Positions 2,066 to 64,000 of a DNA stretch of 64,000 bases are shown piece after piece. Every line of letters starts with the position of its first letter. The first letter of the stretch is position 1. The DNA comes from Trebouxia sp. TZW2008 (lineage: Eukaryota; Chlorophyta; Trebouxiophyceae; Trebouxiales; Trebouxiaceae). The notes beneath the pieces were generated by a model. It was not told the origin of the DNA and did not search any database. It was given only the letters and a program-made list of their open reading frames with translations. The translations under genes were made by a program, and so were the position numbers. The DNA is taken from assembly GCA_002118135.1 (NCBI GenBank), contig BDIU01000278.1, positions 310 to 64,309 of the forward strand, read 5' to 3'.

Positions 2066-4633
2066 CTGCCTGCCTGCCAGCCTACACTCCACTTTCTTCA
2101 GTGGGTCTTCAGCAGGAGTGCTACTGCTATAAGGTAAGCTCATGCCAAGGGTCTCAATCGCACTTGCCATAGTATTTGCTGTGTACATGCCCCCGCACGC
2201 TCCAGCACCAGGACATGCGTTTCTATTGATGTCGAAGCGCTGCGTCTCGTCTATCAACTTTGCTGCATAAGCTCCTGCAAGGTGCAGCACGCATAGTTTG
2301 AACGCTTGGTGTCAAGTGTCTCTTTTGCAATTGACGTGGTATTGACTGTGTACATGCCCCCACACGCTCCAGCACCAGGACATGCACTTCTGTTGATATC
2401 AAAGCGCAGCGATGTGTCTACACAGGCACACAGTTCCAGTCAAGCTGCTTCAGAGTGTTCTAGGGAGGTAAACTCTGCGGGATGTGACGTTCTGCACACT
2501 ATCACACAGTTGCATCATGCAGGGGTTGAGTGTCAAGAATAGAGAGCAGAAAAGGGCAGGGAGTATTATCATAGCTTTGGCAAGCTGACACAATAATGAG
2601 CGACTCGATAAGATTGCTGTGAACAGGCTAGATAGTTCCTCCATCCACAATGGTAGCTGTTGCATTTGTCCTTCTCATAGCACATGTATGCATGATTGTA
2701 GCACAGGAATCAAACATCAAGGCACATTAGAGAGAGCAAGGGCGAGAGGCAATACCATAGCTTTGGAAAGCTGACACAATGTCAAGCGGCTCGTTGCCTT
2801 TGCTGTAGCCAGACTTGATAGTCCCTCCATACACCATGGCATCTGATCTGTTTGAACCTTTCTAGTCATGCATGACTGTAGCATAGCAACTGAACATTGA
2901 TAGAGGAAATAACATCGACAGAGGAGAGGTGGAAACCGCAGGAAGTACCGTAGCTTTGGAAGATTGACACAATATCCAGATGTTCATTGTCTTTGCTGTA
3001 ACCAGGCTTGATTGTCCCTCCATGAACACTGACAGCCATTGTGTCTGTTCTTCCCATACCACGTGTATGCATGATTGAAGCACAGGGACTGAACATTGAA
3101 GAGAAAGAGAGAGAGCAAGGGCGAGAGACAGTACTGTAGCTTTGGAAGGCTGACACAATGTCAAGCGGCTCATTGTCTTTGCTCTAGACAGGCTTAACAG
3201 TTCCCCCATACACTATGGTACAGGCCTATTCATCTGCCCGTATAACTTGTACGAGTGTAGCACAGGGACTGAACATCAAGGCACAACAGAGAGAACAAGG
3301 GCAAGAGATAGTACCGTAGCTTTGGAAGGCTGACACAATGTCAAGCGGCTCGTTGTCTTTGCTGTAGCCAGGCTTGATAGTCCCTCCATACACCATGAGA
3401 GCTGGCCTGTTCAACCTGCCCATGGCAATCATAACTCCGGGCATGTTCTTGTCACACCCAGGTAATGATACATTACCGTCGTACCACTGACCGCCCATAA
3501 CTGTCTCAATGCTGTCAGCGATCAAGTCACGTGACTGTAAACTGAAACTCATGCCATCTGTTCCCATGGAGATGCCATCGCTGACTCCGATTGTGTTGAA
3601 ACGGTACGCAACCATGCCACAGTCTTGCACTCCGGCTTTCACTTCTGCTGCTAAGTCCATTAGGTGCATGTTGCAGGGGTTGCCCTCATACCAAACTGAG
3701 GATACGCCAATCTGCACCAGCAACAGTGTTGTTCAGTGACAGCATCTTGCACTTTGGTCTTCACTCCTGCTGCTAAGTCCAACACATGCAGATTATATGG
3801 GTCACCTTCATACCAAATTGAGGAGACACTCATCTGCACCGTTATTCGTATCTTTCAGTGGCACATTGGCAAAGAATGTTTTCTCCTTTGCTGCTAGGGA
3901 CATTAGGTGCATCTTACATGTGCAGTTGTAAGTAATTGCATAATGGGGTCACACTTGCAATTGCAATGCAATAAGATGCATTGCAATGCACAGTGTGACC
4001 TTGTCATGCATCACAGCACAAGCTGAACATGCTGCAAGGCAGGCATGAGCAGACTCTATTGTGCTACTGCAGCAGTCTCATGCAGAATGCATAGCGGTGC
4101 AGGGTTGTGTTGTCTGAATGACAAAGTAGATAAGTAGAATCAAGTGGCCAAAACATGCCTGTGAGGCAGAGGGAAGGTGGATCAAGCTGTACATTAAACA
4201 GTTTCATATATTGGCTTGTTTATCATTGAAAACATGAGGACAGGTGGTTTTGAACAGACTATATAATTGGAGGAGTATATTTTTTTCATTGAATCTGTAC
4301 AGAAAAGTATGCGCCAGCTTGGATGAGCTGCAAGCAATGACTGACCTGAGGCTTGTTCATGTCCTCTTCGGTCAAGCCTGTCGCGTACAGCATCGCCTGG
4401 GAAGCGCCTTGCGACTTCGGTTGTGTGATATGCCTGCTGTACTTGTTCAAATTTGGCGGCATTTTCTCGGACGGCGACGGTATCTTCTGCTCCTCAAGCA
4501 CTGGCTCTGCGACAACAGCTCGAGCCGCGCGACGGATGCAACCTGTGCATCTTCGAAAGGTTTGTTGAGGAGCCAGCGCCGTCTGGCTGGTGCTGGCCAT
4601 CTGGTGAGCTGCGCTGTGCCCGGCGAAGCTCAT
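2066..4633 (-). CDS. DHAD: Dihydroxy-acid dehydratase, N-terminal half (gene runs out of window)
   Basis: This enzyme dehydrates 2,3-dihydroxy acids in valine, isoleucine and leucine synthesis, in the plastid in plants. Three exons join in phase: 4346-4633, 3315-3711 and 2066-2274, giving 298 codons of the usual roughly 600. The N-terminus looks like a transit peptide ([15 protein letters not shown], rich in Ser, Thr, Ala and Arg). The start at 4633 has an in-frame alternative at 4600, and the frame opens further upstream without an ATG. The core begins at [16 protein letters not shown]. The iron-sulphur cysteines are visible in [16 protein letters not shown] and [10 protein letters not shown]. 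Introns are phase 0 and phase 1. The C-terminal exons are not found in 1-2065 and must lie further left, or have been lost. The gene is divergent from AATF. Family assignment is very secure; completeness is unknown. Confidence 0.93.
2290..2420 (-). repeat. Decayed 5' copy of DHAD exon 3
   Basis: The reverse complement reads [17 protein letters not shown] followed by MYTVNT and then degenerates. This is a copy of the interior of exon 3 lying just upstream of the real acceptor at 2274. It sits where the pattern seen elsewhere in the window predicts an acceptor-side copy. Confidence 0.75.
2560..3205 (-). repeat. Four tandem copies of the DHAD exon 2 end plus donor
   Basis: Downstream of the true donor at 3315 the minus strand repeats the end of exon 2 four times. 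Each copy reads as variants of [13 protein letters not shown] and then [11 protein letters not shown]. The copies end near 3135, 2950, 2761 and 2573, so the period is about 183-190 bp. Most keep a GT-like donor after the AGCTACG or AGCTATG text. Later copies accumulate stops and substitutions (for example [11 protein letters not shown], then LTLCQPSK). Confidence 0.85.
3738..3920 (-). repeat. Copies of the DHAD exon 2 start with acceptor
   Basis: Upstream of the real acceptor (exon start 3711) the minus strand shows gtgcag followed by a diverged copy of exon 2 ([20 protein letters not shown] in frame). A second, poorer copy around LMSLAAK lies near 3870-3916. Both are acceptor-side pseudo-exon copies. 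Confidence 0.75.
3921..4345. other. DHAD intron 1, remainder
   Basis: This is intron sequence between exon 1 (ending at 4346) and the exon 2 copies. It contains a small block around 3945-4010 rich in attgcaatgcaa. I see no coding sequence or recognisable element in it. Confidence 0.6.
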
Positions 4634-4863: not shown

Positions 4864-7800
4864 ATGGCGCCAAGGCGTTCGCTGGCTGAAGAGCTGGCTG
4901 AGCTCGCCACACCTCGACCAGCCGCAGGTACGACGCGATTTTGCATGCAAGCGTACCCGACTGTCAAGCCGTTTGGTGATCAACGCCCTTTTAATCTGCA
5001 GAGGCTGATTTTGAGGGTGACGAGCTAGAAAACGAGGTCGTACTCGACGATGAGGAGATTGACTATGCAGAGATATCTGCTCAGCACTCTGCTAGGTACA
5101 GAGTACAACCCAAAAGGCACCACTGAAGGGCTTTCTCGAAATAACGACTGCATTAAACACCAAGAAGAATGTCCTTACATCGAGTCGTCCTTGCTCAGAA
5201 GCATCACTGTAGTCAGAATGCAGTGCTTGGTTCCCAGTTGCATTCTCCTGACAATGAGAATGTCCTTATATTGAGTGTCCTTATATCAAAAGATCACTTC
5301 AGTTGAGTGGCCGTCATTGCTCTGTGTGGTATGCTGTGTGTGGAATGCTGTCTGGTCGACAGCATTGGAACAATTTCATTGGGATTCTCAAATTGATTGT
5401 GTCAAACGTCTTGTGGGTCAGGCGGCAAGTCACAGCCACTGCAAGTGCTGTTGTGGTCTGCAGGAAAGTACAAGAGAGGCGGGATAAATTGCGCGCTGAT
5501 ATTCGTTACATGAGCTGTCATAGAATGGAGGGAGATTTTGATCCATCAGCCCAGTCAAGTTCTGATAAAACAACTGAGTTGATGCTGTGTAGCGCAGGAA
5601 AGCCCAAGAGGAAAACGACAAGTTTTGTGCTGATTTTCAAGTGTAGGATCCTTCTCGCAGTGCAAGGCAATACAAGCCATCGCTCCAGTCAGATTTTGAT
5701 GCATCAAGTTATCGGAAGTGGTGTTCTGGTCTGCAGGAAAGCCCAAGAGAAGTTCGACAAGTTGCATGCTGACATTGAAAGAGATGCCAGAGCCGTCATA
5801 AAGTGGAAGGCAATCCATTGCCCCTAGTCAAATTTTGATGTATCAACATTGGTCCCAAAGTGATGCTCATGTTTCTGAGGTGATGTACTGGTGTGCAGGA
5901 AAGCACAAGAAAAGAGAGACAAACTGCGTGCTGACATACAGATGCAGGAGCCGTCATACAGTGGAAGACGCACAAGTAGAGCTGCAGCTTTTGGGGAGCC
6001 AGCAAGCAGCAGCAGCTCTGATGCACCCAGGTAAGCCTTTTGCATGTCATAAAAGTGCAGCATTGCATGTCTCATAGCTTTCAATGTCACAAAGACTAGT
6101 TGTTGTTCAGCTGCACAACATACAAAAGTTTGTGCAACAGCAAAGCTCAAACAACAAACAGTACATGGCATACAAATAGAGCTGCTGCTTTCAAGGTTAG
6201 GTTCCTCTTGCGCACTCAAACATGTAACATAAATTCAATTGGACTGGCATCTGGAGTTCATGACGCATTCAAATTGTGCATGCAGCAATGATGGGGAAAG
6301 TGATGACTCAAGCCATGAAGAAGAAGACATGTCGCTTACAAACGAAGAGCAAAAGGAAGAATCACAAGCTTCAGAAGAAGAAGACCAGGAAGCTTCAAGC
6401 TCCTCACAGGATGCTGAAAGCAGTGGTGAAGAAGATGGAAGCAACGAGGCTGACAAACCCTCGCCCTCAGGTAGGGTTTTCTGTAGAGCATCTTCTCTTC
6501 TTCTTCTGTTCTTGAATCTTCTTTTGCTCTTCTTCATCCTCTCTTATTCTCTTCTTCTAATCATCCCTTCTTAAGCGGATGCAAGGGTACACAGCAGTAG
6601 CTTCATGATGCCTTTTCTAAACACACACATATTTATTTTATACTCAGTCAAAGTTCGTATTTTTGATATCTTTTTAAGCATGTTGTATTGGAATCACGGC
6701 TGTTCGTGTGCTTGCGCATAAATTTGCGGTATTAGCCTACAATTGCAAGTGGCGTTGCTGGGCACCAAATTTGGCTGAGTTCATGCTAACGCTGAGTTGG
6801 GGAATTGATCAGAGGTCTTTACTCAACTTACTATTCCAGGACTGTACTTGCCTTTCAAAAATAAAGCAGCATTTTCTAAGTTGTCAGCATGATTTTTCAA
6901 TTGCTGAAGATGTATCTGTGGTATCGTCCTGCAGTTATCAGCTGCCTGTCTGGGCATCAGATTTGAATGAGACAATCCTGACGCTGAGTTGAGGAACCAA
7001 CCAGAGGTCTTTACTCAAAATTCCAGGACTGTGTTTTGGTATATAGACACACACTGGGATGCAATCTTGGATTGTTGAGTACAGCTCTTTGAGCTTTTTG
7101 TCAACCCGGCGTCAATACCAGTCTGGCCAAATTCTTTCATTCCATTTCAAACGTGTGCTAGGCAGGCTCAGCAGGCTCAGCTAGGTACGAACTGGAGCAG
7201 TCAATTTTCTCCAACCAGTTCGGCCCTGTGCTTCCCCAAACCATTGAATCTCTGCATGGAGGCTGGTGTGGTCCTTGCAAACGGTTGTCTGCCAAGTGTC
7301 TCTGGGTTTCCCCCTAGCCTTTGTACCTGGTACCTGCTCAAATGTGCAGCGACAATTGTACTTATGATTTTGCTCCATGCAGGCGGCCATCAGGCAGAAG
7401 TAGGTGAAGAAGAAGCTGCCAAGGAAGCTGAATTGGCACAGCAGTACACATTTGTGTTTATCCTCATTTCACAACATGCCTTTCTCTTTGCAGATCATCT
7501 CATGCAGAAATTGATCAAAATGCCCTTGTATGTATTCCAACCGTTGTGTGAAACCCATGACTTCCTCGTCGCAGGTCAAGCTCAAGCAAAAGCAAGTGAA
7601 GAAGAAGAACATGAGCAAGCTGAGCTGGCAAAACAGTATACACAGGCAGCAGCACAGGATCAAATTGCACTGAACAGTCGAAGTAAATGTTTTTGTTCCT
7701 TTATTGTGCATTGAACCCATGACCTGTTTTTTGCCCTTGCCATTATGCAGGACCAGTTTTTTTTAATCCGTGTATTGAACCTGTGACTTTCTTTTTGCAG

Positions 7801-10800
7801 GTCAGCCTCATGCAAAGGCAGGTGAAGAAGAGGACGATGAGGAAGCTGAGTTGGCACAGCAGTACGCAGAGGCAGCAGCACAGGATCAAATTGCGCTTGC
7901 CAACATGAGGGATAGGGTTTCGAAAGACCAGGCCAAGGGTTTGGCAGTGTTGCATCAAAAGCGGCTATGGGAACAAAACCTAGAACTGCGGATTTTGCTG
8001 CAAAAGTGCTTACAGGTGAACGCTTTATTTGATCTTGATTCTCTGCATTACAACCCGCATTGCATCCAGTACCGAGCCAGCACTTGCAACCTTGCTCCAG
8101 GGTCACATTGAATGTGTGCGATCTCACAAGTGATGCCGATGTGAGGTCAGGAGATTCCAAGGAGGCCAATAAACAGTTGTGTAGCGGCATTGACTGACTA
8201 GAGTCAGTTATACTTTTGTTGTGTTTGGCACTCTTCAAGTTTGCCTGCATTGACAGACAGCGCCGCACATCCCTGCTGATTTTTGGTTTCTTGTGCTGCA
8301 CCTTTGCATGCATTTCAGGTCTGCTAATGCTGCAATTATTGCTGTTGCTTGTGTCATGTTGGGATGTTTCTGTTGATTGATGGCATTGCAGTAACACCCC
8401 ACAGAACAGAAATAGATACATTCAAGATGCTTGCGGTCATGATTTGCAGTAAGAGGACTGAGAGCTGCAAAGCAAAAGGGGCTAGCAAAATGTGCGTTGC
8501 TGCATGGACATACTTCATGAACACTCGGGGTTTGCAGTTGTATAATGGCATTGATTGATTGATCTGACGCCTGTGCCCTAGCAAACGAAAGTCAGGTAAC
8601 AGTCATGTTCCTGTAGGCCATACAGCAGGCTTAATTTCTCAGCAGCAGTTGGGCAGACGACGGGGCCAGCAACATGCTTGCATATCAACCCAGGACAAAC
8701 TACTTATGTGTTACAGCATTTGTTGCCTGTCGCCCCAAGGAATTTAAACTGGAAAAGATGAATGAATGAATGAATGAAAGCTTGCAGGCGGCCAATCGCA
8801 TGCCATACGGAGCGTCTCACTTCGCTGTCGTTCACTCAGATCCAACCCTAGCCGCCAGCTACACAACCCTAGCCTCAGACACAGCCACAACAATAGATCA
8901 CTTGCTAGACTTGCAGCAAGCTCTCGTTTCACAACACCCAGCCGCACAACAGAGCGCTCAAGCTTTTCTCACAACTGACAGCAGCGTCAGCAACAAAAAT
9001 GACAAGAAGGACAGCGCTCAGACATTAGTCAGCAGTAACGGAGACGCAGCTAGTCAAAATGGCAAGAGGCAGAGGCGAGAAGATGATGAAAGTGAAGAGG
9101 GAGGACAGGCGGCTAGGAAGTGGCAGCGAATAGATGAAGAGTATAGGAAGCTTGTGCCGTTCCGAGATGCTTCCATCGATAGATGGCACCGCAAAACAAT
9201 GCTGATTTCAGGTATGTCAATTTATTCATGTTCAATCTCAAAGAGGTTTCGGGTTTCTTGTGCTGCATATTTGCATTATTTTCAGGTCTACCAATGCTGC
9301 ACTTTTACTGTTGTTTGCACTGTTTTGGGATGCATCTTTTGATAGATGGCACCGCAAACCAATGCTGATTTCAGGTATGTCACTTTGGTGATGTCTTATA
9401 TCAAAGAGGTTTCAATTTTTTTGGGCTGCATCTTTGCATCATTTTCAGTTTTGCTGATGCTAGACCTCTACTGGTGCATGCGCCGTTCCGGGATGCTTCC
9501 ATTGACAAATAGCACGGCAAAGTAATGCTGATCTCAGGTCTGTTGTGCTGTGAACTCGTTTTGTCAACAAACTAAACTGCAGGTTTTCCATTATCTCAGG
9601 TGCATTGTGCTGGATCTTTTCCGTTGCTTATGCAGTTCCGGGATGCTGCTATTGACAGATGGCATTGCAGAACAATGCTGATTTCAGCTGTGTTGAGGCT
9701 GCAGCTGTTTCAGTTGCTTGTGCTTTTTTGAATTGACTGAGATTGACTGCACCAGCTGCTGTAGTCATTCTGCCTCGTGAGTCAAGGGAGTGTTGGGAAT
9801 TGTAACAGATGGCGCCGCAAAAAAAAATCTGATCTCAGCTGTGTTGATGCTGCAGCTGTTGAAGTTGATTGCCCTGTTTTGGATTGACTGTTTGACTGAG
9901 ATTGAACGCACCAGCTGCTGTCCTTGTTTGTCCTGGTGGCTCATGGGAAGGGAGTGTTGGGCAATGTGTCACATGGGAAGATGACGCTGATTTCAGGTCT
10001 GTGGTGCTGCCTCTTTTGTTGCTGCTTGTGCTGCTGTCCTGCAGCATCTTCCCTGACAGACAACAGCTCAAGCATAGGGGTTCAATGCAATTGTGATATG
10101 ATACGCAACATTCCCTACCCATGACTCACAAGGGAGTGAGTATAGCAGCTGCTGCAGTCAAGAGTAGTGTAAGTCTTACTGAGAAGTGTAAGTGGAAGTA
10201 GTGGAAGTGTCAGTGTAAATGTGTGTGTCAGTATAAGTAGTAGTACTGTAAGTTGAGTGTAAGTGTATGTGTTGGTGTAAGTAGTAGTACTGTAAGTAGA
10301 GTGTAAGTGTGAGTGTTACTTAATTGACCTGTTTGCAACCTAGACAGCTCAAGCACAGAGCTTCAGACATTTGCTTAATGGTTGATTCTGCAGGACAATG
10401 ACATATTGTGTGTGGTGACTGTAGGGGCTGGCGCAGTCAAGGGCAGTCTGAAGGCCCTTGAAGAAAAGCGTTTCCAATCAAGTTGTCGCAATCACAATTT
10501 ACTGCGTCACAGCGCTGTAATGACTGCTTACTTCATGTCATGACTACAGGGGCTGATGCACACAAGGGCAGTCTAAGAGCCCTGAACCAAAGCGTTTCTG
10601 GTCAAGTTTTCACAGTCATGACTTACACCGTCAGAGCTCTGTAATAAGGATTTACTGTGTGTCAAGGCTGCAGGGGCTGGAGCAGTCAAGGGCAGTCTAA
10701 GAGCCCTGAACCAAAGCGTTTCCAGTCAAGTTTTCACAGTCATGACTTACTGCGTCAGAGCTCTGTAATAAGGATTTACTGTGTGTCATGACTGCAGGGG

Positions 10801-12668: not shown

Positions 12669-12699
12669 CAACAGATTAAAAATAGGAGGAATAAAAAAT

Positions 12700-13168: not shown

Positions 13169-13169
13169 T

Positions 13170-31600: not shown

Positions 31601-31730
31601 AAATTTGCCTTTTGAGGGAGGCCCTATTTTGGCTGCAGCTATGTCTACTGGCGTGGTCAAATTGCTGACTATGAATTTGCTTGAAGAGCAGAAACCCTCT
31701 TTGTCTCAAAATTCCGGTGTCCAGGATTAG
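28687..31730 (+). CDS. RUP: COP1/SPA/RUP-family WD40 protein, RUP-like
   Basis: This is a WD40 beta-propeller of the COP1/SPA/RUP group, regulators of light and UV-B signalling. Four exons close in phase to 552 aa: 28687-29259, 29516-29638, 30077-30174 and 30866-31730. Residues 1-130 are Ser- and charge-rich with no RING finger (unlike COP1) and no kinase domain (unlike SPA), so RUP-like is the best label. TPWEWLSEWAERPLP leads into the propeller: GVEFSPDGHLLASAGVAKQV, LSSLAWD, VTVGDYDGVV, WSV ... SDDGTARIW, LIGLASANHNAYVYDMR, GHSRAVSYVRFLSGQRLVTA, and the group signature FRGHHNSKNFVGLTV with GSETSTVFAYN. The protein ends near VVKLLTMNL. An SPA-like protein with a lost N-terminus is the alternative. 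Confidence 0.9.
30470..30860 (+). repeat. Roughly 60-bp tandem array ending at the RUP exon 4 acceptor
   Basis: Six to seven units of catgctgtgcttcaagctgt followed by ggagctgcacctgctgacc and a tatgctttg block run up to the real acceptor ttgcatgctgtgcag at 30865. The exon part of the unit (AGTTTGGAGTG) is visible in decayed form as agctgtggagctg. Most units have lost the AG (tgtgctt in place of tgtgcag). Confidence 0.85.
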
Positions 31731-35900: not shown

Positions 35901-36471
35901 CGAAGCATGGGGATGGGGTACACCCATCACTGCCAGGGTCATGTATGAAGTGCTCAGCCACCTGAAGAAGAAGAGAGACAATCAGGTTCAGTGGACTGAA
36001 GAAGAAGACTGGGCAGGCACAGCTGCCCAAGTTCAGCCCACCTGCCAGGAGGCATGGGGGTGGGGTACCCCCATGACTGCTAGGGTTGTATACGAGGTTC
36101 TCAGCCACCTGCAGAAGAAGATGAGCAGCAGAAAGATTCATTAGCAGATGAGAGGATTTACAGGGAAATGATTGCATGTCCCTGGCTTACCAGCTTTGAG
36201 AATATTGAGAATTGGTGGCTCAACTGCTCAGCGCTGGCGCTCATGCACAAGACAGACAAATAGGCTGACAACTAGACATACAGAGGGACAGACAGAGGGA
36301 CAGACAGAAGACAGACAGACGGACGTTTAGACAGACAGACAGGCAGACAGACAGCCAGCACGGCCGGCAGTTGCTGGGGGACACATGAAGAAGAACGGCA
36401 CCTGGCAAAAAGCTGTGCAGTGAGGCCTGGATGTATCTTGAACCCCCTGAGTTCTGCAGTTCATGCCCTAA

Positions 36472-36523
<52 letters not shown>

Positions 36524-36775
36524 GGACGGACGGACGGACGGACGGACGGACGGACGGACGGACGGACAGACAGACAGACAACGTGTGTCCCAGCCTCCCT
36601 TGAATGCTGGGATTTATGGGCAGCAACCCCCCTGTCTGAGCAAAAGACACTGTACAAACGTGCTCAACACACTCAAGTCTGGGAAAAGTCTCAAGTTTTC
36701 AGCACCTGGCAAAACCCTGTGCAGTGAGGCCTGGGGTGGTGTCTCAAACCCCCTGAATTCTCCGGTTGATGCCCT

Positions 36776-36822
<47 letters not shown>

Positions 36823-43836: not shown

Positions 43837-43869
<33 letters not shown>

Positions 43870-47190: not shown

Positions 47191-47194
47191 TTGA

Positions 47195-53500: not shown

Positions 53501-56500
53501 TGACTGAGTTTACGCCCCTGAAGCTAAAAAAGTTACTGTTCTCGCAGTGCTTCAATGCTTGACTTGTTGATGGGCACAAAACGCACTTCCTGCAATCAGA
53601 ACTTTCTTAGCCCAGATGTTGCAGTCTGCAAGCCTGCCCACAAATGCTAACTTGCATCCCTTGGACTGCAACCGCAGCTCTTTTTGCAGTGCTTCAATGC
53701 TTGCCTTGTGATATGCACAAAACGCACTTCCTGCAATTAAAAAACAGTCTTCAACAACTAGTCTGAGCACACTAGCTGACTCCACCTGCATTGCTTGTCT
53801 ACTGTGAGTATATCATCAGTGGTTTTGCGCAGCAATCAAGCTTTACAAATCTGGGCTGATGTATGCCAGGGGTTTTGAAAAGGACAAGTCCAGAAAGGTA
53901 CCTTGAGCGCTTTGTCATTTCTTGAGTGGGCAAACTGCAACAGTCCAGCAGCATAATTTCCTGCTGCCAGCACGTCAAAACCTGCATACCAGAAGAAGAC
54001 ACATACGCTGTTATCTTGGAGTGTTGTACCAGATCTTGAGCTAGCAAACTCCCAACACTCCTGCACATATGCACATATGAACCTGTCCTGCCAGTTGTAT
54101 AGGCCATCCTGCTGCTCCTATCAAAGGCAATGCAACAGATTGTGCATAAAAGGCAGCACAAGTGCAAGTTTAGGACCATACCTTAAGCGTTTTGTCGCTT
54201 CTTGAGTTGGCAAACTGCAACACTGCAGCAATGTGAATCTGCGCTGCCAACTGAATTAGACATCCTGCATCTCTCAGCAAAGGCATTGCAATAGGCTGCA
54301 TCCGTATGAAGAAGAAGATGTAGGACCATACCTTGAGAGTCGTGTCGCTTCTTGAGCTGGCAAGGTGCGACATTCCAGCAATTTGAATGCGCTGCCAATG
54401 GGATAGGCCATCCTGCTGCTCCTGCGTTTAACAGCGGCAATGCAATAGACTGCGATCCTTCATAGCTCTCAACTAAGGAGCGTACCTTGAGCATTTTGTC
54501 GCTTCTTGAGCTGGCAAATTGCAACACTGCAGCAATGTGAATCTGTGCCGCCAGTTGTATAGGCCATCCTGCATTTCTCTGCAAAGGCATTGCAATAGAC
54601 TGTTCCATGAAGGAATAGATCTAGGACCGTACCTTGAGACTGTTGTCGCTTCTTGAGCTGGCAAGGTGCAACACTCCAGCATTTTGAATCTGTGCCGCCA
54701 ATGGGCCATCCTGCTCCCATCAGCAGCATTGCAATAGACTGCATCCCCTCATAGGTCTGAAATTCAGGACCATACCTGAAAACTTTTGTCGCCTCTGAGC
54801 TGGCAAATTGCAACACTCCGATGACGTGAATCTGTGCCGCCAATTGTATAGGTCATCCTGCTCCTATCAACAGCATTGCATTGCATTACACTGCATTCCT
54901 TCATTGCTTCATATTGACAGAAGTACCTTGAGCGTTTTGTCGCTTCGTGAGCTGGCAAACTGCAACACGCTGGCAATGTGAACCTGTGCCGCCAATTGTA
55001 TCGGCCATCCAGCCGCTCCTGCTCCTATCAACGGCATTGCTATGGACTGCATCCCCTCATTAGTCGCTTGCTGCAACACTGCTTGGACAGTACTCTTTAA
55101 GAGCGCGATGTCTTCATGTTCATCACCTGTCAAGCAGAGCAAGGGTTACTGTCAGCAAATAACTAGGATGGTTTCTAGTTGCACTACTGCGCTGCAGTCC
55201 GTCAATGGCATTGCTATGGTTTGCATCTCCTGTTAGTCGCTTGCTGCAACACTGCTTGGACAGTACTTCTCAGCAGCTCACTGTCTTCATGTTCATCACA
55301 TGAGAAACAAACACAAACTACTGTCGATGGCATTGCTACGGACTGCAATCCTGTGTTACTCGCTTAATGCAACACTGCTTGACAGTATTTCTCAGCAACT
55401 CACTGTCTTGCCGTTCATACCTGAGACACAAACACAAACTGCTGTCAACAACATTGCAATCGACTGCATTCCTTGTTTGGTCGCTTGCTGCAACACTGCT
55501 TGGACAGTACTTCTCAGCAGCTCTGTGTCTTCAGGCTCATCGCTGTCAAACAGAGCAAGGGTTACTGTCAGCAAACAAAGCTAGTCTGGCAGGGTGTTTT
55601 CACCAATGCGCTGCAGTCAGTCAATGGCACTGCTATGGACTGCGTTCCTTGAAGCATTGCTTGCTGCAACACTGCTAGGACGGTATTTCTCAGTAGCTCT
55701 GTGTCTTCAGGCTCATCGCCTGTCAAACAGAGCAAGGGTTACTGTCAGCAAACAAAGCTAGTCTGGCAGGGTGGTTTCACCACTGCGCTGCAGTCAGTCA
55801 CTGGCACTGCTATGGACTGCGTTCCTTGAAGCATTGCTTGCTGCAACACTGCTTGGAAGGTAATTCTCAGCAGCTCTGTGTCTTCAGGCTCATCGCCTGT
55901 CAAACAGAGCAAGGGTTACTGTCAGCAAACAAAGCTAGTCTGGCAGGGTGGTTTCACCACTGCGCTGCAGTCAGTCAATGGCATTGCAATGATCTGCATT
56001 CCTTTGTTAGTGGCTGGTCTCAACACCGCTTGGACTGTGTTCTCAGCAGCTGACTGTCTTCATGTTTGTCACCTGAGGAACAAGAGCAAAGTTACAATCA
56101 AAGGCATTGCAATGATCTGCATTCCTTTGTTAGTGGCTGGTCTCAACACCGCTTGGACTGTGTTCTCAGCAGCTGACTGTCTTCATGTTTGTCACCTGAG
56201 GAACAAGAGCAAAGTTACTATCAAAGGCATTGCAATGATCTGCATTCCTGTGTTGGTTGCTTGATGCAACACTACTTGGACAGTAAATCTCAGCAGCTCT
56301 GTGTCTTGCTATTCATTGCCTGTCAAACAAACTCAAATTTCAAATGAGTGTCAGACACAACCAAGCAAACAGCGGCAGTTGGTGCTGATTTGAAAATGCC
56401 ATGAATGATATTGTAAAATCGTATGGACTCATTTCATTCAGTCATTCTAAATGTAGTCATGCTAGACAGGCTCAACAGGCCCAGCTAGGTACGTACTGGA

Positions 56501-58527
56501 GCACTCAAATATCTCCAACCATTTTCGTCCTGTGCTATTTTGAATCATTCAAACTGTGCATGCAGGGAGGTGAGATCCTTGTATATGTTTGTATGCCAAG
56601 TGTCTCTGGGTTTGCCCCTAGCGCTTGGAAGATCCACAAAGCTTCTCACAGCTATGAGGTGATCTCACTATGAAGCAATCACTGTGATGAAAAATAGTAC
56701 AATACATAATCAAGTAAAAAGAAAGAAGAAAGTATTCAAAAGGAAAACTCCTCCTGTCTCTTCCGCTAGAAGAAAGAAAAGAAAGGCCTACGCCGTTAGG
56801 CGTCATAATGGGAGCCTCTATCTAAAGGGGCAACCCAGGATCCACTAGAAGAGAAAAAGGAAAAACGCTCACCACTATAATGAGGACCAACAGCATGGAT
56901 GATGTTGTCAAACGGCATGGGACTGCTCAAGGGTTCACGAATGGGTGACACCACAGCTGTGCCCACCGGCACCCGGCGGTGGCCGGCAGGCAAGGCCTCC
57001 AGGTACTCCTTGCAAGCCACCTTCAGCTCTGGGCCCACAGCTGTGGCGATGTGCTTTGACACGCCGCCTGTGAGATTGAGCTGATTATTGGTGGGATTGA
57101 CAATGCCTGAGACGTTCTGCTCAGTCAAATTGCCAATTTCCACCTGCATGCATGTCAATGGTTTTATAACAATAACAAAACCTATCGACAAAGAGGAAGG
57201 AGAGCTTGAGGGTGTGAGTAACAATGCCCGACACGTTCTGCTCAGTCAAACCGTCACTTTCCACCTGCATGCATGTGATATGATAGTTAGTAATGTTCCA
57301 AAAAAATTCACAACAGTAAAGAAGAGTAGCTCAGGGGCATTTGCAGGACAGTGCCTTGAGTGGATTGCTTACTTGAAGTGCCAATTTTGAACTGCAAGCG
57401 CGTCAATGATAGGCTATAAGGTTCAGAAGAGTTTTGACAACAAACAAAACTAGCTAAGGGGCATTTGCACTACAATGCCTGAGAGTTTTTGCTTGATGAG
57501 ATCATCCAGTTTTCACCTGCATGAGTGCTAGGAATGTAGATCACAAGAGTCAAAGAAAATTGACAATCAAGCAAAACAGCTAAGCAAAGCATGAAGGGAA
57601 GGCAAAGCGAGATCAAGTTCAAGAAGAGAAGCTCAATGTGAAGTTGCAACACCTGCGCGCAGACAGATTTGAGCATTGGGAGCTCAACACATCACGCTCA
57701 ATCTTCAAAAACCATCACAAGCAGACACAAGGGGCAGCACTGAGATAGACCTGCTCAAGAAGCGATAGAAAGCCAAGCAGAAAAGATGTCAGTCAGTCAA
57801 TGCAAGGAGTACTTAAAAAGCAATACCTTACATGCAACTCATGCTATCTGAGGGTATGTCTCACTGAAATGCATTGCAAAATGTAAAACATGCAGTACAT
57901 AAGTGCCAATACATGACATGAAATCAGCAAAATCTTGAAGTATCAACAACTGAGAACAAGATCATAGTGATTCAATGAATGACGTTGACAATCATCCATT
58001 TGGTGCTGAAGACTTGCCTCAAGGTGCATGTGATTGAATGCAGGGCCCTTAGTCACCCAGCACACAACCCTGTGCTTCTTCTTCACCTCCTGTATCATGT
58101 GCTCGCCCACATGCTGGAGCTCAGGATGAGTAAACAGGGCAGCTTGGTAGGGCTCTAGGGCGAGGCTGGCCTCAGGGCTGTTCCGCTCTTCCTCTTCACA
58201 AGCTGTTTCCAGCACATGCATGGCTTGGTCAATGTCACTCTCTGTGCCATGCAAAGTGACGTTTCCATCCTGGAGCAAGCAAAACAAGAACAAGTCTTTT
58301 TCTGTGTCGCGTTTATCAAGGAAGGAATAGTGAATTGTGTTGCTGTTGCCTGAGTTTGTCATGCTGACTTTTTCTACCAGTGTCATGCAACAATGCAGAA
58401 CAAGCTAATGCATGGTGTGTGAAACGGGAATTTGGGCAGCACAATGTCGCTTTGCGATTTGATGTGCTGGCAAAGTGACCGAGCTCCTAGTGCAGACAGA
58501 TGGATGGGCAGACAGACAAACAGAAGC

Positions 58528-58604
<77 letters not shown>

Positions 58605-59120
58605 CATGACATCAGAAACCTGATAGGAGGAATGGTAGGTGACAATCTCTGGCACAGGCGCAAAACAGCTTGTTTTCAGCATCAGAGAAGCATAGGCAGC
58701 ATGCAGTATCAGTACCTGTACGTCTTTTGATATGACCACTCCTAGATTGGTGCATTGCTCCGTCAAGTGATCCCAGTCATGCTGTAGGCACAGCTGATGA
58801 ACTGACAATGAGAAGCATATGCTCCTGTCCACCAGCACTGGGGCTGGTTGGGGCAGGGCTGCTTGGAGGGGCCCTGACTGGGGCAAGGCAGGTTGGAGCA
58901 ATCCTCCAGAGGCTGTAGCTGAAGGTGTGTCCGAGCTGTCAGGAGAATGAATTCTGCTCAGGGCTGTTTGGTGCAGCCCTTGCTGTGGCAGGGCTGCTGG
59001 GAACAGCCCTTCTGGGAGGGTGGGGGCAAAATTTGTGGGCATGTCTAATGAAGCTGATGAGTCATCTGCTGACTTGGCTAGCATTGAACGTTGCGCCCCT
59101 CCATATTCGTCATCTGCCAT
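47569..59120 (-). CDS. Macro-domain PARP, predicted mono-ADP-ribosyltransferase
   Basis: Ten exons close in phase to 736 aa: 58716-59120, 58018-58269, 56873-57143, 54927-55126, 52763-52909, 51402-51551, 50279-50479, 49274-49445, 48430-48706 and 47569-47704. Residues 1-219 are a Pro/Ser-rich start and a helical linker. A macro domain spans about 220-425 (EIGNLTEQNVSGIVNPTNNQ, GGVSKHI, FDNIIHAVGPHYS, then SIAMPLIGAGAAGWP). The PARP catalytic domain spans about 490-736 (RALPSNWAPM, VHRIQNQLLWKVYAGN, LWHGTS, GHGTYFSTRPQLCMDYSHR, GLRQMLAVDVLTGKAKN, then SGHAYPRYLVTYK). The catalytic triad aligns as His584, Tyr619 and Ile715. Ile in place of Glu is what family knowledge associates with mono-ADP-ribosylation, as in PARP10. 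Intron 2 uses a GC donor (GAG/gcaagt). The layout recalls PARP9/14/15. Nearly every exon has partial copies beside it. Confidence 0.92.
47705..48160 (-). repeat. Acceptor-side copies of the PARP exon 10 start
   Basis: On the minus strand tgcag followed by ACAGTTGGGCATTGCTGATC (real, 47704) is preceded by copies reading gcagACGGTTGAGTGTTGCTG, caggcagttagacgctgctg and caggcaaacgggccttgctg. These sit near 47843, 47997 and 48133, with spacing of about 135-155 bp. Confidence 0.85.
48295..48365 (-). repeat. Donor-side copy of the PARP exon 9 end
   Basis: The minus-strand text GAAGACTAAAGCCTCAGAAG/gtagttc copies the end of exon 9 (DKSLG..) and its donor, 119 bp downstream of the real donor at 48430. 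Confidence 0.8.
48765..48850 (-). repeat. Acceptor-side copy of the PARP exon 9 start
   Basis: The minus-strand text ctgcagGGTTCCAGCACAAT followed by CACACAAGGGCTGATAGAC copies the first 60 nt of exon 9 (GFQHNHARADGP) 140 bp upstream of the real acceptor. Confidence 0.85.
49045..49165 (-). repeat. Donor-side copy of PARP exon 8
   Basis: The minus strand repeats exon 8 from GAACCTGCT to the TATGCCGCTGAACACG/gtgagc donor, with changes, about 220 bp beyond the true donor at 49274. The HGTS codons have decayed. Confidence 0.85.
49480..50080 (-). repeat. Five acceptor-side copies of PARP exon 8, about 125-bp period
   Basis: Exon starts (minus strand, after tgcag or cgcag) lie at 49445 (real), 49563, 49692, 49817, 49946 and about 50071. 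The intervals are 118, 129, 125, 129 and about 125 bp. Each copy contains about 75 nt coding VHRIQNQLLWKVYAGNLDAM-like text and ends near GAACCTGC, which is itself the next unit's boundary. None extends to the exon donor. Confidence 0.93.
50500..50765 (-). repeat. Acceptor-side copies of PARP exon 7
   Basis: A nearly full-length decayed copy (TTTGCCCTCAAATTAGGCGC and so on) lies at 50510-50660 with its own tgtaggcagcaagc start. A second trace starts at ctgcagccagccatc near 50720. The real exon is 50279-50479. Confidence 0.85.
50995..51275 (-). repeat. Two donor-side copies of the PARP exon 6 end
   Basis: The minus-strand ends CTAGTCTACGAG/gtttgtccc (51202) and CTAGTCTACAAG/gtgcatttt (51002) copy the real end CTAGTCTATGAG/gtttgtccc (51402) at exactly 200-bp spacing, each with upstream GACCTGCTGACTCTGAAAGG. 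Confidence 0.9.
51640..51990 (-). repeat. Three acceptor-side copies of PARP exon 6
   Basis: Copies of TTGATGTGTCAAACAGTCAA followed by GATGCAACGCC appear near 51705, 51840 and 51980; the real exon starts at 51551. Spacing is about 135-150 bp. The last copy is fused directly to a copy of the exon 5 end. Confidence 0.88.
52230..52665 (-). repeat. Donor-side copies of the PARP exon 5 end
   Basis: Variants of GCAAGACATGCAAGA(g)GAAATTGAG recur near 52590-52620, 52420-52450, 52310-52330 and 52240-52265, plus the fused copy near 51990-52015. They copy AAMQDVQQQIE and the donor region of the real exon (ending 52763). Confidence 0.8.
53030..53745 (-). repeat. Six acceptor-side copies of PARP exon 5, about 130-142 bp period
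   Basis: Starts (minus, after tgcag or cgg) lie near 53051, 53182, 53320, 53460, 53590 and 53731; the real exon starts at 52909. Each reads EVRFV(D/H)INKSSIEALQEE with LRLQSKG and often FVGRLADGNIWA after it. They are highly alike and mostly open, so this array is young. Confidence 0.93.
53880..54865 (-). repeat. Six donor-side copies of the PARP exon 4 end, about 145-155 bp period
   Basis: After the true donor at 54927 (ACGCTCAAG/gtactt), copies end near 54775, 54632, 54487, 54333, 54180 and 53902. Each carries GWPIQLAAQIHIAAVLQFAS-like text followed by SRSDK.LK and a gt donor in most cases. Most copies also include ggaatgcagtctattgcaat text from the exon middle. Confidence 0.93.
55235..56330 (-). 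repeat. Seven to eight acceptor-side copies of the PARP exon 4 start
   Basis: Starts (minus, after gacag or tcag) lie near 55300, 55425, 55545, 55720, 55900, 56073, 56198 and 56320; the real one is at 55126. Each has GATGAGC-CTGAAGACAC followed by text coding ELLRSTVQAVLQQAT. Copies 55720/55900 and 56073/56198 are nearly identical pairs (180-bp and 125-bp higher-order duplications). Confidence 0.92.
56455..56650 (-). mobile_element. 5'-truncated LINE remnant
   Basis: The plus-strand text catgctagacaggctcaaca through ccaagtgtctctgggtttgcc is collinear with 7150-7330 over about 180 bp. On the minus strand it keeps a decayed GKPRDTW-like C-terminus. It lies in PARP intron 3. Confidence 0.6.
56765..56850 (-). 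mobile_element. Second copy of the short dispersed repeat
   Basis: The minus-strand text gggttgcccctttagatagag, gctccc and atgacgcctaacggcgtag followed by gcctttcttttc matches 12375-12485 (+). It ends within 25 bp of the donor of the macro-domain exon. Confidence 0.5.
57205..57520 (-). repeat. Three acceptor-side copies of the macro-domain exon start
   Basis: The real exon 3 starts GTGGAAATTGGCAATTTGAC at 57143. Copies start near 57263 (GTGGAAAGTGACGGTTTGAC), 57388 (TTCAAAATTGGCACTTCAAG) and 57515 (GTGAAAACTGGATGATCTC). Spacing is 120-127 bp, each preceded by tgcatgcag- or tgcag-like text, increasingly diverged with distance. Confidence 0.88.
57521..58017. other. PARP intron 2, remainder
   Basis: This is A-rich intron sequence between the macro exon copies and exon 2. 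I see no exon-like copies beside the GC donor at 58018 and no other element. Confidence 0.6.
58507..58608 (+). repeat. (CAGA)n-(CAGG)n microsatellite
   Basis: About eight gaca units are followed by about twelve cagg units in PARP intron 1. It is a pure simple repeat that creates long artefactual open frames on both strands. Confidence 0.95.
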
Positions 59121-59430: not shown

Positions 59431-59431
59431 A

Positions 59432-59551
59432 ACACTACAGCACTGAAGGTTCCAGGGCGATCACTCAGCCGAGTAATAGTTGAGCTCAATCCAGTTTGAC
59501 TTCCCTGATCAGACAAGAAGGGGTCTGGTCAGGATGATATGGCCGTAACAT
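59432..59551 (-). rRNA. 5S rRNA-like gene, copy 2
   Basis: The minus strand gives a 120-nt sequence starting ATGTTACGGCCATATCATCC and containing TCTGATCAGGGAAGTCAAAC, ATTACTCGGCTGAGTGAT and a 3' end GTGCTGTAGTGT. The order and spacing of the 5S landmarks (ACGGCCATA, GAAGTCAA, TACTCGG-TG-GTGA, GCTGTAG) are correct. The two ends pair through all ten helix I positions with G-U allowed. TTTT follows at once, as expected for RNA polymerase III termination. It differs from typical plant 5S at several sites, so it may be a diverged gene or a 5S-derived repeat. Confidence 0.8.
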
Positions 59552-59639
59552 ATATCATTTGCCAAATCTGGCAGTCATATACCATTTGACAACCATGAAG
59601 AAGCTAGCTTTGCCTTGCTACTGTTGGCAAAGGCAGTCT

Positions 59640-59875: not shown

Positions 59876-62306
59876 CTGGTATGAGCTTCCTTGCATCAGC
59901 CATCATAGCCTCAGTTGCTGGTGGGGCAGAGGGAAGAGGGAGTATGCCTGCCCCTGCGTCTTGGCCCAAATAGCCCTGGCCCTGAGGGGCATTTCCAGGC
60001 TGTGAGCTCAAAAAGCCCTGCCCCTGAAAAAGAGGCACTCCTGCCACTGCATTTTGCCTCAAACAGCCCTGCTGCCAAGAGGCACTTTCGGGCTGTGGCT
60101 TCAAAACGCCCTGCCCCTGAAGGTCACTTGCCGTTCTCTGATTACAAATGCTGTCATTGGGTATAAGGACTGTTTGTGGTACCCCCGATGGCTTGCCGTC
60201 AAGTTGTGCCAGAGGGGAGTTATCGGGTGGTCCAGTGCCTGGTAGGGTTTGGCTGTCACCTCCAGGGCTTTGACCAGGGACCCCAGGTTGATGAGGAGGG
60301 GCCTCTGCAGGGTCTGGGGTGGGTTGCATGTGGCTGTGAGCACCGCTGCTGACAGGATTTGGGGGTGTCTGAGGACCCCTAGGGGGTTGCTGAGGGAGGT
60401 TGGTGGGGTCAACGGGAGCAGGCATTGGGCCAGGTGCATTTGTAGGGGCTGTCTGTGGGGGTGTCTGAGGCCTCCTGAGGGGTTGTGGAGGGGGGTTGGC
60501 AGGGGTCACGGGTGGTTGCACTGGGGTAGTTGCTTTGCTGCCTACAGGCTTGCTGAACAGGTCAGCTGCTGGTTGACTCATCATCTTGACTAAGCGTGAC
60601 AGCATTGGCTGGCCCTTGGAGTCCTGCTGGGAATCTGGCATGCTGATGAAGAAGCTATATCCTGCTTGGTCTGTTCCAATGGTGAAGCAGCCGTCCCGCT
60701 TCACAATTGACGCCCATGGCATGTGCTGCAAGACAACAAAAACTTTTTCTCCCTTGGCATTTCTTTTTTGTTTGTAAGGGAAAAAGAAAATTGGCAAAAC
60801 AAAAAACGGAAAAACAGAAACTGTCAGCCTGCAGACCTTGCATCAAGAGCTGTTGCTAAATGCCCTGCAACAATGCAGCTCACATGCTGCAGATGAGGGC
60901 AAAAGCCCTGGGGAAAAGCATCTGGGGGCCAGCCCTACAGCAAAAGCTCTAGCGCAAGACAATAGGCGCAACACATGACCAGTACCACACAAGTGCCAGG
61001 GCTGCTGCCAAAAGCCCCAGGAATAAGGGTAAAAACCCCAACAGCAAAGCAATCAGGGCAGCAGGGCAGGAGTGTCATCAAGGGCCACGGCTGTTGCCAA
61101 CTGCCCGACAGATGAGGGCAAAACCCCTTGAGCAGAGCAGCTTACCAGTGCCACACAAGCGCCAGGGCTGTTGCCAACCGCCCCAGGGAAGGGCTCTTTG
61201 CTGACTTGTGCTTCTGTGACAAAGAGTGTTCCCTTCAGTCGCACTCTGTCTTTGGAGAAAATCATCAGTTGTGTGTGCACAGCTTTGCCGTAGATATTGT
61301 ATTTGGGCACCAATACAGACCATCGCTCTTTCCAGATCAATTTGGCTTTCAACCTGCAGTACAAAGACAGCTTATCTTTGTGAACATTGTGTTCAGGTAT
61401 CAGTATACAACATTGCTGTTTCCAGCTAGTTTTGGCTTTCAACCTGCATCACAAGTGCACAGCATCGCCCTAAACATTGTATTTGGGCACCGATACACAC
61501 CATCGCTCTTTCTAAATCAATTTGGCTTTCAACCTGCATCACAAATGCATAACAGTGTCATAGATGTTGTATTTTGGGCACTGATGTGTTTGCATGCTCT
61601 TTTCATATCTGTTTGGCTTTTGAGCTGCATTACAAGCACATCAATGTCAGTGCTGAAACGCTGGCAAAGTGCTGCTGTTCTTGTTTGGCACACAGCAGAA
61701 TGCGCGCATGGGTGTAGGATCAACACAAGAATTGCCTAACGACGATGCTGGTCTGAATGAACATGTCTTCAGATGAAATGACAGGCAATGTGCAAGTTGC
61801 ATGCCAATATGCAATGCTATGCTTGTCGGGTGATGTTTTCAGCAGACCAGTCAAGATCATCAAAGGGAGTCAAGTATGCCTTTCGTTCAAAACATCAAAA
61901 CATGTGCCAGACAGGGTCAGCAGGCCCAGGTAGGAGTCATGCATGCATGTAGGAACAATGCATGAGTGACACATGTGTGAAAACCAAACATCAGGCATAG
62001 ACAAAGATCTTACCAGGAAGAAACGCCATGCATCTTTGATAAGATGTACACATTCCCATGAAATGCATTCTGAGCCTTGACAAACTTGAGAACGCAATTC
62101 CCCATTGTGTCTGCTTCCCTGTATAAGCCGTCCTTGGAACCTCTGATTTGTAAAGCATATTCCATTGCGGTCCGACCTGCAGGACATTGCATGCCATCAT
62201 TCAACAATCACAATGATAACTATTACACCAGTTGCATTGATTGACCTTCAGGAACAGGCTGAGGCGTATTGTGATCTACCTTGCGTCCGCGCAGGCACAG
62301 ATGTCA

Positions 62307-62364
<58 letters not shown>

Positions 62365-64000
62365 CCAATCAACCAATCAATCAATCAACCAATCAATTGC
62401 AGCTGTAGCAACATCAACAGAAGCATATGTACTGCTAAACAGAATTACACACGCAATGCATCCATGCAGGCCATTGCATGCCATCCAAAATGCAGGTACG
62501 GCCTCATGACAACATTTACGAACTTGTGCTGAGCTGCTGAATGCACTGCCGAGCCAGCCCACCCTGGAGCAGCTAGAAGTAGGTCAGCTCGTGCACAGAC
62601 CCTGGACTCTGCAGCCTGCAGCGCTAAGCAAAAGGCTTGCAAAATCGCAGCTGTTTTCAACCTCTCACAGACTCCATGTATGCCCACGTGCCCAGCTGAT
62701 GCATGCATTTCTGAGCCAGCACACCCTGGAGCAGCTAGAAGTAGGTCAGCTAGCCTACAGACCCTGGAGTGACTATTGCAGCCTGCAGCGCTTGCTGACT
62801 TGCAAAACAAAGGCCAGCTGGTTTTGCTCTGCAACAATGCTTGCAGGATTGCAAACAAAGGCCCTTTGATGGCAACACCTCAGATAGTCATGGGGTTTGG
62901 GGGCAGAGCAAAGCATGCCAAAACGCATATGGGCAAGACACTATAGCACTCAAGGTTTCCGGGCAATCACTCAGCCGAGTACTAGGTGAGCCCAATCCAG
63001 TTTGACTTCCCTGATCGGACGAGAAGGGGTCTAGTCTGGATGGTATGGCCGTAGCATACCATACTAGCCAAATCTTTCTGTTACATACCTTTAACACAGC
63101 TTGCACATGGGTGCACCATACAGTGATGCTGTGCATTTTGCTGGGCTTTAGTGGTAATTGGTCTGACTCATTTTTGATACAAGGCTCTTGCAGCTGAGGC
63201 TCATCTGAGCGCTGGATTTTCTGTCATGATGCCTAACAGCCCAGAAGCTTGTCAACTGTGCTGTCTGTGTTTGTGCTGCATGGATCATATTTTGATGCAG
63301 AGGGAAGTGACAAATTCACCTGATGGCTGTAGTGTCAAGCTTCCACTGGTTGCAAATTGATGCAGCTGCTACTGAAGTTGCTCTGTGAGAAATTTGTATG
63401 CAAGCTGGATGTTCACCCGCTCAACATTCACAAGTCTGTGAGATTGCATCGCACTTCTCAGCACTAGCTGCAGCTTCTGTGCTCAGCTTAAGCGCAAAAA
63501 CCTCTTCAGCTGTGTCACACATTATAAGTTGTACAACAGATTGTTCAGAATGCTTTAGAGCAGAAACTCACCTGACTTATCTGGCGTGTATGGATTACTA
63601 CCATGACTGAGAAATGTATCTAACATCTGTTCATCGATAGTCACATCGCCCAGCAAACGTATGAAGCTGAGCATGTGGGATCTCACCCGACTTGTCTGGC
63701 ATGTGTGAATTGGCATTTTGGTTCAGTAATATGCCCAGCATTTGCTCATCAACGGTCATTTTCTCAAGCCAATCTTGAGGGCTACGCATTTCAAATCTCA
63801 CTAAGACTATGTGGCATGCGTGTAGTCGCACGCTGGTTCAGCATTTGCTCCTCAACTCCTTGACAACACTAGTCCCAAGCAGAATGTGCAAAGCTAAGCA
63901 TTTGAGATCTCACCCAACTTGTCTGGCATGTACGGGTTGACACCATGACTAAGCAGCATGTCCAGCATGTGCTCATCAACAGTCACACTGCCAAGCAAAT
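59876..64000 (-). CDS. Ankyrin-repeat plus PH-like domain protein, partial
   Basis: The gene enters from the right edge. Exons in phase are a phase-1 ankyrin exon (three alternative copies ending at 63572, 63690 and about 63915), 62014-62176, 61146-61353 and 59876-60725. The ankyrin part reads LSHGSNPYTPDKSG joined to GRTAMEYALQIRGSKDGLYR, followed by HGNVYILSKMHGVSSW. It continues into LKAKLIWKERWSVLVPKYN with KGTLFVTEAQVS, SIVKRDGCFTIGTDQAGYSF and FISMP, which has the beta-strand and Trp spacing of a PH domain (lipid or protein binding). A roughly 200-residue Pro/Gln-rich tail follows (TPVQPPVTPANPPP), with repeated GQG-L units. The last exon is uncertain. The exact family is unknown to me. 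Ankyrin is well supported and PH moderately. Confidence 0.7.
60870..61145 (-). repeat. Donor-side copies of the PH exon end
   Basis: The minus-strand text GGTTGGCAACAGCCCTGGCG followed by TTGTGTGGCACTG/gtaagc (real, 61146) recurs as GTTGGCAACAGCCGTGGCCC (about 61085) and TTTTGGCAGCAGCCCTGGC with TTGTGTGGTACTG/gtcatg (about 60981). A weaker trace lies at 60870-60900. Confidence 0.85.
61435..61640 (-). repeat. Acceptor-side copies of the PH exon start
   Basis: Copies of GTTGAAAGCCAAATTGAT(c/t) preceded by gtgatgcag or tgcag start near 61443, 61535 and 61627; the real exon starts at 61353. Spacing is about 91 bp. The second and third still read ERWC.. and LVPKYN-like text. Confidence 0.88.
62308..62398 (+). 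repeat. (AATC)n microsatellite
   Basis: About twenty tandem aatc units with a few aacc variants. A second, shorter aatc-like trace is not seen nearby. Confidence 0.95.
62500..62800 (+). repeat. Roughly 170-bp direct duplication
   Basis: The text gcactgccgagccagcccaccctggagcagctagaagtagg at about 62543-62584 recurs at about 62705-62750 as atttctgagccagcacaccctggagcagctagaagtaggtcagc. Both are followed by cagaccctgga and gcagcctgcagcgct. This is a two-copy unit in an intron of the ankyrin-PH gene, possibly from an exon I do not recognise. Confidence 0.8.
62938..63057 (-). rRNA. 5S rRNA-like gene, copy 1
   Basis: Again exactly 120 nt on the minus strand: ATGCTACGGCCATACCATCC, TCGTCCGATCAGGGAAGTC, TAGTACTCGGCTGAGTGATT and a 3' end GTGCTATAGTGT. 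It is closer to consensus 5S than copy 2 in the TCTCGTCCGATC and AGTACTCGG regions. Helix I pairs at nine of ten positions. No TTTT follows (TCTTGCC), so termination may be poor. It lies inside an intron of the ankyrin-PH gene, in the same orientation as that gene and as copy 2. Confidence 0.8.
63560..64000 (-). repeat. Tandem in-frame copies of an ankyrin exon end
   Basis: Three units end at 63572, 63690 and about 63915 with the same phase-1 donor (AAGTCAG/gtgag, AAGTCGG/gtgag, AAGTTGG/gtgag). They read LSHGSNPYTPDKSG, LNQNANSHMPDKSG and LSHGVNPYMPDKLG, each after VDEQML- or VDEHML-like text. By the rule seen elsewhere the outermost (rightmost) copy should be the genuine one. All three remain open. 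Confidence 0.82.

Follow-up and report, generated by a model that had tools for sequence, protein, structure and literature searches.

Introns of a Trebouxia-like alga carry copies of their own splice junctions, stacked inward from both ends, and a general process of tandem duplication, with selection for the outermost splice sites and with the inner copies drifting, very probably explains this pattern. The explanation is carried by the direct orientation, the size and the order of the copies, their occurrence at unlinked loci, the equal density of arrays in introns and in unannotated DNA, the decay of the copies and a missing class of duplications. The pattern was noticed in a first-pass annotation of one stretch of DNA, 64,000 nucleotides long as a whole and called the window below. 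There, copies of an exon 3′ end plus donor were described directly downstream of the real donor, copies of an acceptor plus exon 5′ start directly upstream of the real acceptor, and only the outermost copy was joined to the rest of the exon.

In the mechanism that we propose, a mutational process would make head-to-tail tandem duplications, mostly of about 60-250 bp, across the whole genome. When the duplicated segment crosses a donor, one copy would remain joined to the exon and the second would fall just within the intron; when it crosses an acceptor, the additional copy would fall directly upstream of the acceptor. The protein would be unaltered only when splicing stays with the outermost donor and the outermost acceptor, so that selection would retain those events, while use of an inner site would add intron and a second exon fragment to the message. 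The inner copies would then drift as intron, and successive rounds would make introns grow inward from either end. To judge from the continuity of reading frame and profile, the outermost sites are probably those used.

The fixed order, the continuation of the outermost copy alone and the lack of a reverse order follow from the geometry of tandem duplication together with selection, and therefore give no evidence of a special process; a process acting on splice-junction sequence, as first suggested, is unneeded for the order rule. The event in the DNA may be error-prone repair of staggered breaks by fill-in and then end joining. In mammalian cells, according to one study, break ends whose overhangs are complementary give rise to small tandem duplications through fill-in and joining of the staggered breaks (PMC8355091), and we infer a break-repair origin in this alga by analogy.

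Junction duplications in the window

The window has a GC content of 47-51% and belongs to a genome of 68.5 Mb in 527 contigs. Trebouxia genomes in print measure 62-71 Mb, with a GC content of about 50% where stated (PMC12712428, PMC11126685). The best named relative of a WD40-protein exon at 30738-31727 is a protein of Trebouxia sp. C0009 (63% identity). Among the gene names given by the first-pass annotation, DHAD (PF00920), AATF (PF13339) and IFRD hold by Pfam scores above the families' own cut-offs, as does the macro domain (PF01661); in the IFRD gene, PF04836 is marginally below its cut-off and PF05004 has two matching stretches that share a frame. The Pfam cut-offs are not reached by the PARP domain or by the GTPase match underlying NOA1, and 'gene H', 'gene J' and the ankyrin-PH gene were not identified under those names. 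The 'sea of false ORFs' turned out to be a real but modest excess, with 169 stop-to-stop ORFs of at least 90 aa, true exons counted, where 30 resampled sequences average 111 (sd 8).

Comparison of the window with itself gave 125 direct versus 3 inverted repeat pairs. The direct pairs are local, 114 of the 125 lying at most 1.3 kb apart, and all three inverted pairs are more than 33 kb apart. Repeat units are mostly 70-250 bp. The arrays and duplications discussed here are as follows.

2143-2411, minus strand: DHAD acceptor-side copy (2310-2411), copying the exon that starts at 2274; unit 167 bp
2541-3421, minus strand: DHAD donor-side array, four exon-3′-end copies downstream of the exon end near 3313-3315; unit about 182-190 bp
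3623-3840, minus strand: DHAD acceptor-side copy, upstream of the exon starting at 3711; unit 122 bp
9150-9976, plus strand: AATF donor-side array, from the exon ending at 9211; unit about 163 bp
10395-11227, plus strand: AATF acceptor-side array, about 6.6 copies, reaching into the exon starting at 11170; unit about 124 bp
15600-15767, minus strand: NOA1-like donor-side duplication, from the exon ending at 15702; unit about 89 bp
16368-16914, minus strand: NOA1-like donor-side array of about four copies, from the exon ending at 16809; unit about 138-165 bp
22314-23142, plus strand: IFRD array with exon-bearing copies, which of them is the real exon being uncertain; unit about 133-136 bp
25564-25763, plus strand: IFRD acceptor-side duplication, preceding the exon starting at 25723; unit 126 bp
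33505-34485, no strand: array touching no modelled exon; unit about 131 bp
36241-36965, minus strand: donor-side array of an unnamed gene, from the exon ending at 36874; weaker evidence, because it overlaps a tetranucleotide repeat
42286-43061, minus strand: donor-side array of an unnamed gene (41045-46036), from the exon ending at 43051; unit about 101-118 bp
51001-51445, no strand: array touching no modelled exon, the youngest of the well-covered pairs (94.7% identity); unit 200 bp
57090-57276, minus strand: acceptor-side duplication of the PARP-like gene, before the macro-domain exon (PF01661) starting at 57143; unit 121 bp
60978-61187, minus strand: donor-side duplication of an unnamed gene, from the exon ending at 61146; unit 166 bp, 44 bp aligned

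In the DHAD donor-side array, the last 75 nt of the exon recur within the intron (minus strand) at 3130-3207, 2944-3021, 2753-2828 and 2564-2642, with identities of 72/76, 70/78, 68/78 and 59/79; the four copies score 58-132, versus 18 for the best antisense match. The true donor near 3313 is weak by matrix (0.7), and its phase agrees with the next exon at 2274. In AATF, the donor-side and acceptor-side arrays share one intron of 1958 bp.

The 25 ab initio introns modelled in the window hold 12 junction-spanning arrays (7 donor-side and 5 acceptor-side) and 8 interior ones. The ab initio model scored the DHAD array at 2541-3421 as interior when it is truly donor-side, which brings the spanning total of the window to 13; it was left as interior in the pooled counts given below. 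The arrays first reported are thus present, in a lower number than the 'well over twenty' claimed, the models covering part of the introns of the window.

Recurrence of the order rule at other loci

Profile searches of the whole genome gave 63 exon matches for Cpn60, 54 for HSP70 and 146 for kinesin. Outside the window, 22 loci holding 124 of these matches (only 9 of them kinesin) were taken, and their splice models were built from profile continuity and phase, independently of the gene models of the first-pass annotation. Among the 85 candidate introns, 77 score at least 8 and have a sharp consensus, MAG|GTRAG at the donor and TGCAG|G at the acceptor, and 72 of the 77 splice models join their exons at profile offset 0. 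The first-pass annotation had proposed that exon-3′-end similarity should lie in the first half of an intron and exon-5′-start similarity in the second, and this was examined in 74 introns at 20 loci, with 40 mismatched controls per intron.

Copies of the upstream exon's 3′ end scored above every control in 8 of the 74 introns, and all eight lie within the first half, the closest to the middle at 0.49 of the intron. For the 5′ start of the downstream exon this was so in 5 of the 74, each time in the second half. When the control level is relaxed to 99.9%, exon-3′-end copies appear in 9 introns and exon-5′-start copies in 7, and antisense copies of exon edges in 0/74. The order rule and the exon-edge copies described for the window recur among the introns of these 20 other loci. 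The reverse order, of which the first-pass annotation saw no clear case, is likewise unseen here. The order expected from intron birth by tandem duplication is absent too: intron starts resembled the downstream exon start in 0/74 introns and intron ends the upstream exon end in 0/74, at the 99.5% control level. The clearest case is an HSP70 locus (L049), in which two partial copies of profile positions 131-168 are followed by the full exon, 131-205, and the outermost copy alone continues into the remainder of the exon.

At two loci, the profile matches of exons overlap over short introns, at ~3044-3131 in L035 (21 positions) and at ~6396-6641 in L034 (31 positions; gene orientation, 0-based). 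Both blastn and the direct test give no DNA similarity at these overlaps, which could be very old introns born by duplication.

A probable general duplication process

The duplications extend well beyond exon edges. In 259 kb scanned for pairs of at least 40 bp, 304 direct and 21 inverted pairs were found, and arrays cover 18.0% of modelled introns, 11.2% of modelled exons and 17.6% of unannotated DNA, the last of which includes some unmodelled introns. The first-pass annotation had named equal density in intergenic DNA as a finding that would speak against its account. For the duplication process overall the density is indeed equal, with the reservation just given; exon-fragment copies as such are by nature limited to gene edges. 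What that account lacked is the interior arrays and the like arrays in unannotated DNA.

Exons are not touched at all by 71 of the 108 well-covered pairs; in 30 pairs one copy is partly exonic, only one pair is more than 90% exonic on both copies, and one more reaches 89% on both. The median duplication unit is 145 bp, in direct orientation. Units that touch exons and units that do not are similar in size (medians of 157 and 141 bp; KS P = 0.85), and unit lengths show no bias to multiples of 3.

The copies decay as expected of neutral sequence. Well-covered pairs mostly diverge by 12-34%, with indels and eroded boundaries, and only 1 of the 108 exceeds 90% identity. Decoy donors keep GT in 14 of 22 cases and decoy acceptors keep AG in 16 of 19, near the prediction from base identity (84% and 86%). 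Four alignments in this comparison matched themselves, at 100% intronic identity, and its pooled intronic value was set aside. The longer decoys in homology-backed introns contain a frameshift or a stop in 10 of 20 cases. Among spanning units, those with less than 20 nt of intron are absent (0/44 versus 6.5 simulated, P = 0.0009), although part of this deficit may be geometric, the simulation having used exons of 220 bp when real exons are often shorter. Such units would offer hardly any space for a functional splice signal, and their absence agrees with a filter on survivors imposed by splicing. The alternative that the first-pass annotation had also allowed, a neutral process whose survivors are limited to those that leave one exon intact, is thus well supported by the unit sizes, the equal density, the decay of the decoys and the absence of the low-intron class.

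Young arrays are scarce: 5 of 65 have a best identity of at least 90%, versus about 27-33% under a constant rate. Either the process has slowed, or there was a past burst, or young copies have collapsed in the assembly.

Excess of arrays at splice junctions

The 76 homology-backed introns (20 loci) contain 10 donor-side, 10 acceptor-side and 5 interior arrays, and the median intron length is 628 bp with arrays versus 303 bp without. With the 25 introns of the window added, there are 45 arrays in 35 introns, 17 of them donor-side, 15 acceptor-side and 13 interior. An enlarged set of 180 introns, to which 85 more ab initio introns were added and in which the window introns were chosen more strictly, has 65 arrays distributed over 53 introns; the donor side accounts for 24 of them, the acceptor side for 20 and the interior for 19, and 2 connect the two junctions. 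One extra copy is all that 46 of the 65 arrays have, and the maximum is about nine copies. The retuned ab initio finder recovered 69-73 of 77 known introns (penalties 10-14), yet predicted 131-146 in the same gene spans, so that there may be false ones among the 85 ab initio introns.

Junction-spanning arrays number 46 of 65 in the enlarged set, versus 24.7 expected under uniform placement within each intron; by set, they are 20 of 25 in homology-backed introns (10.3 expected under uniform placement), 16 of 23 in ab initio introns and 10 of 17 in the window. The proper expectation is higher than the uniform one, because exon-anchored copies remain detectable longer, and a simulation of this detection bias raised it by a factor of 1.25-1.43. 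A scaling of arrays by their intronic scores (30 of 49 spanning versus 17.1 expected) was set aside as too lenient, since random scores were scaled up as well.

Forward simulations with decay, indels, selection and growth were run in ten settings. The simulated spanning fraction was 0.54, 0.51 and 0.64 at a constant rate, the last with halved starting introns; 0.53, 0.51 and 0.54 with a quiet recent period; 0.54, 0.48 and 0.50 with longer indels, which in two settings were also more numerous; and 0.55 in the final setting. Compared with nine of these settings (31-36 spanning arrays), the observed 46 of 65 gives P values of 0.0002-0.007, and compared with the tenth, that of the halved starting introns (42), P = 0.16. 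In odds, the excess is two- to 2.6-fold over the nine settings and 1.4-fold over the tenth. These figures come from simulations of which no setting fits all features, introns with arrays making up 35-63% of simulated introns versus 29% of real ones. They suggest a junction preference of at most two- to 2.6-fold.

This modest excess is the only opening for a process aimed at splice junctions, in which exon-edge breaks, R-loops or splicing-linked DNA damage would make the copies. It persists over the simulations with decay and selection in all but one setting, and a like excess is seen in the homology-backed set alone. However, the neutral setting with shorter starting introns is not rejected, and both unit sizes and density are equal away from junctions. 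The two sides of the intron are also affected about equally, and the exonic reach of the spanning duplications is widely spread rather than fixed. We consider junction targeting improbable and general duplication under selection for the outermost sites the better account. Some further features fit general duplication less well: exonic reach is non-uniform (KS P = 0.013), with units almost wholly within the exon being scarce, which is the low-intron class described above; introns bearing both donor-side and acceptor-side arrays (6 of 180) are slightly more frequent than by chance (P = 0.03); and 2 of the 65 arrays connect donor and acceptor.

Other origins of the copies

Could the arrays be traces of intron birth, through tandem duplication of an exonic AGGT segment? 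Intron birth of this kind is a known mechanism (PMC3443670). A donor-to-acceptor link is seen in 2 of the 65 arrays, each of them in an ab initio intron, and a small number of exon matches share profile positions over short introns. However, both donor-to-acceptor cases may have a decoy as the predicted exon, and the direct comparison of intron ends with the opposite exon found nothing in 74 introns on either side. Intron birth is thus largely ruled out for detectable ages, while old events could have decayed, and it is very unlikely to be the source of the arrays.

That the copies were kept through use as alternative exon ends or mutually exclusive pieces is more doubtful still. Some decoys are as strong as the real sites, but splice-site retention matches neutral decay, half of the longer decoys are broken by a frameshift or a stop, and unit sizes ignore the reading frame. 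An assembly artefact is highly improbable: the few near-identical copies could mean collapsed young duplications, but the well-covered pairs recur at unlinked loci and their divergence, indels included, is not something that an assembler creates.

Relation to known systems

Hellsten et al. in 2011 reportedly described intron gain by tandem genomic duplication. In that system (PMC3443670), a local tandem duplication likewise meets splice sites, and use of the right sites preserves the protein. The difference is that there duplication of an exonic AGGT gives birth to a new intron, whereas in this alga the duplication affects a junction that is already present and makes its intron longer; the intron/exon similarity expected from such gain is absent here (0/74).

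Tandem duplications from staggered breaks are similar in being direct, head-to-tail, local and limited in size. They can arise in any sequence; in this alga the density is equal in modelled introns and unannotated DNA, with a residual excess at junctions. The work on mammalian cells used induced breaks whose overhangs were as small as 43 bp (PMC8355091), whereas the duplications in this alga have a median unit of 145 bp and are old. Intronic minisatellites and tandem repeats also form arrays of diverged copies in non-coding DNA; unlike these, 46 of the 65 arrays here consist of one extra copy, and the spanning ones carry coding sequence and a splice site. Introners, too, add sequence to introns in many genes (PMC9860276), but as near-identical dispersed copies, whereas the copies here are local. 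For the one array checked, the AATF acceptor-side array, the sole match in the whole genome is itself, and introners are ruled out for it.

Ordinary tandem duplication under selection accounts for the order; what is unusual is how abundant the arrays are in this alga and how many decoy splice sites they leave behind. We did not find the filling of introns from both ends by junction duplications described in the titles and opening parts of abstracts consulted on splice-site duplication and tandem-duplication intron gain, a coverage that takes in few subscription papers. The main text of the Trebouxia A48 genome paper contains 'intron' once and 'tandem' zero times.

Decoy splice sites and splice-site choice

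Decoys that score at least as high as the real site are common, making up 5 of 22 donors and 8 of 19 acceptors, or 13 of 41 overall. If the outermost donor and acceptor are picked over decoys of equal strength, it follows that sites are chosen from the exon side. The nearly equal tolerance of donor-side and acceptor-side events (24 versus 20) would fit such a choice. Duplications that cross an exon edge would cost little as long as the outer splice sites win.

We advance only tentatively, and as rather unlikely in its full form, the proposal that local tandem duplications are received or retained at junctions with about twice the frequency seen in intron interiors and that the spliceosome reliably takes the outermost sites over nearby decoys of equal strength. 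If it is true, the genome is a natural experiment on splice-site choice. General duplication across exon edges by itself offers a simple account of how introns can lengthen from both ends without transposons. With an array in 53 of 180 introns and 13 of 41 decoys at least equal to the real site, extrapolation to the genome would give thousands of decoys, and these natural decoys could show how the spliceosome picks between equal sites.

Other repeats in the window

Two 5S rRNA genes, at 59432-59550 and 62938-63056 (both minus strand), lie 3.5 kb apart and are 83.5% identical over about 170 bp. A dispersed direct repeat occurs at 7150-7318, 41571-41640 and 56443-56622; unlike the local arrays, it links distant places, which are 80-84% identical, and is possibly the remnant of a mobile element. 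Long tetranucleotide repeats (AGAC, ACAG, CAGA, CAGG) are present at 36250-36843 and 58509-58606, and the two places match each other.
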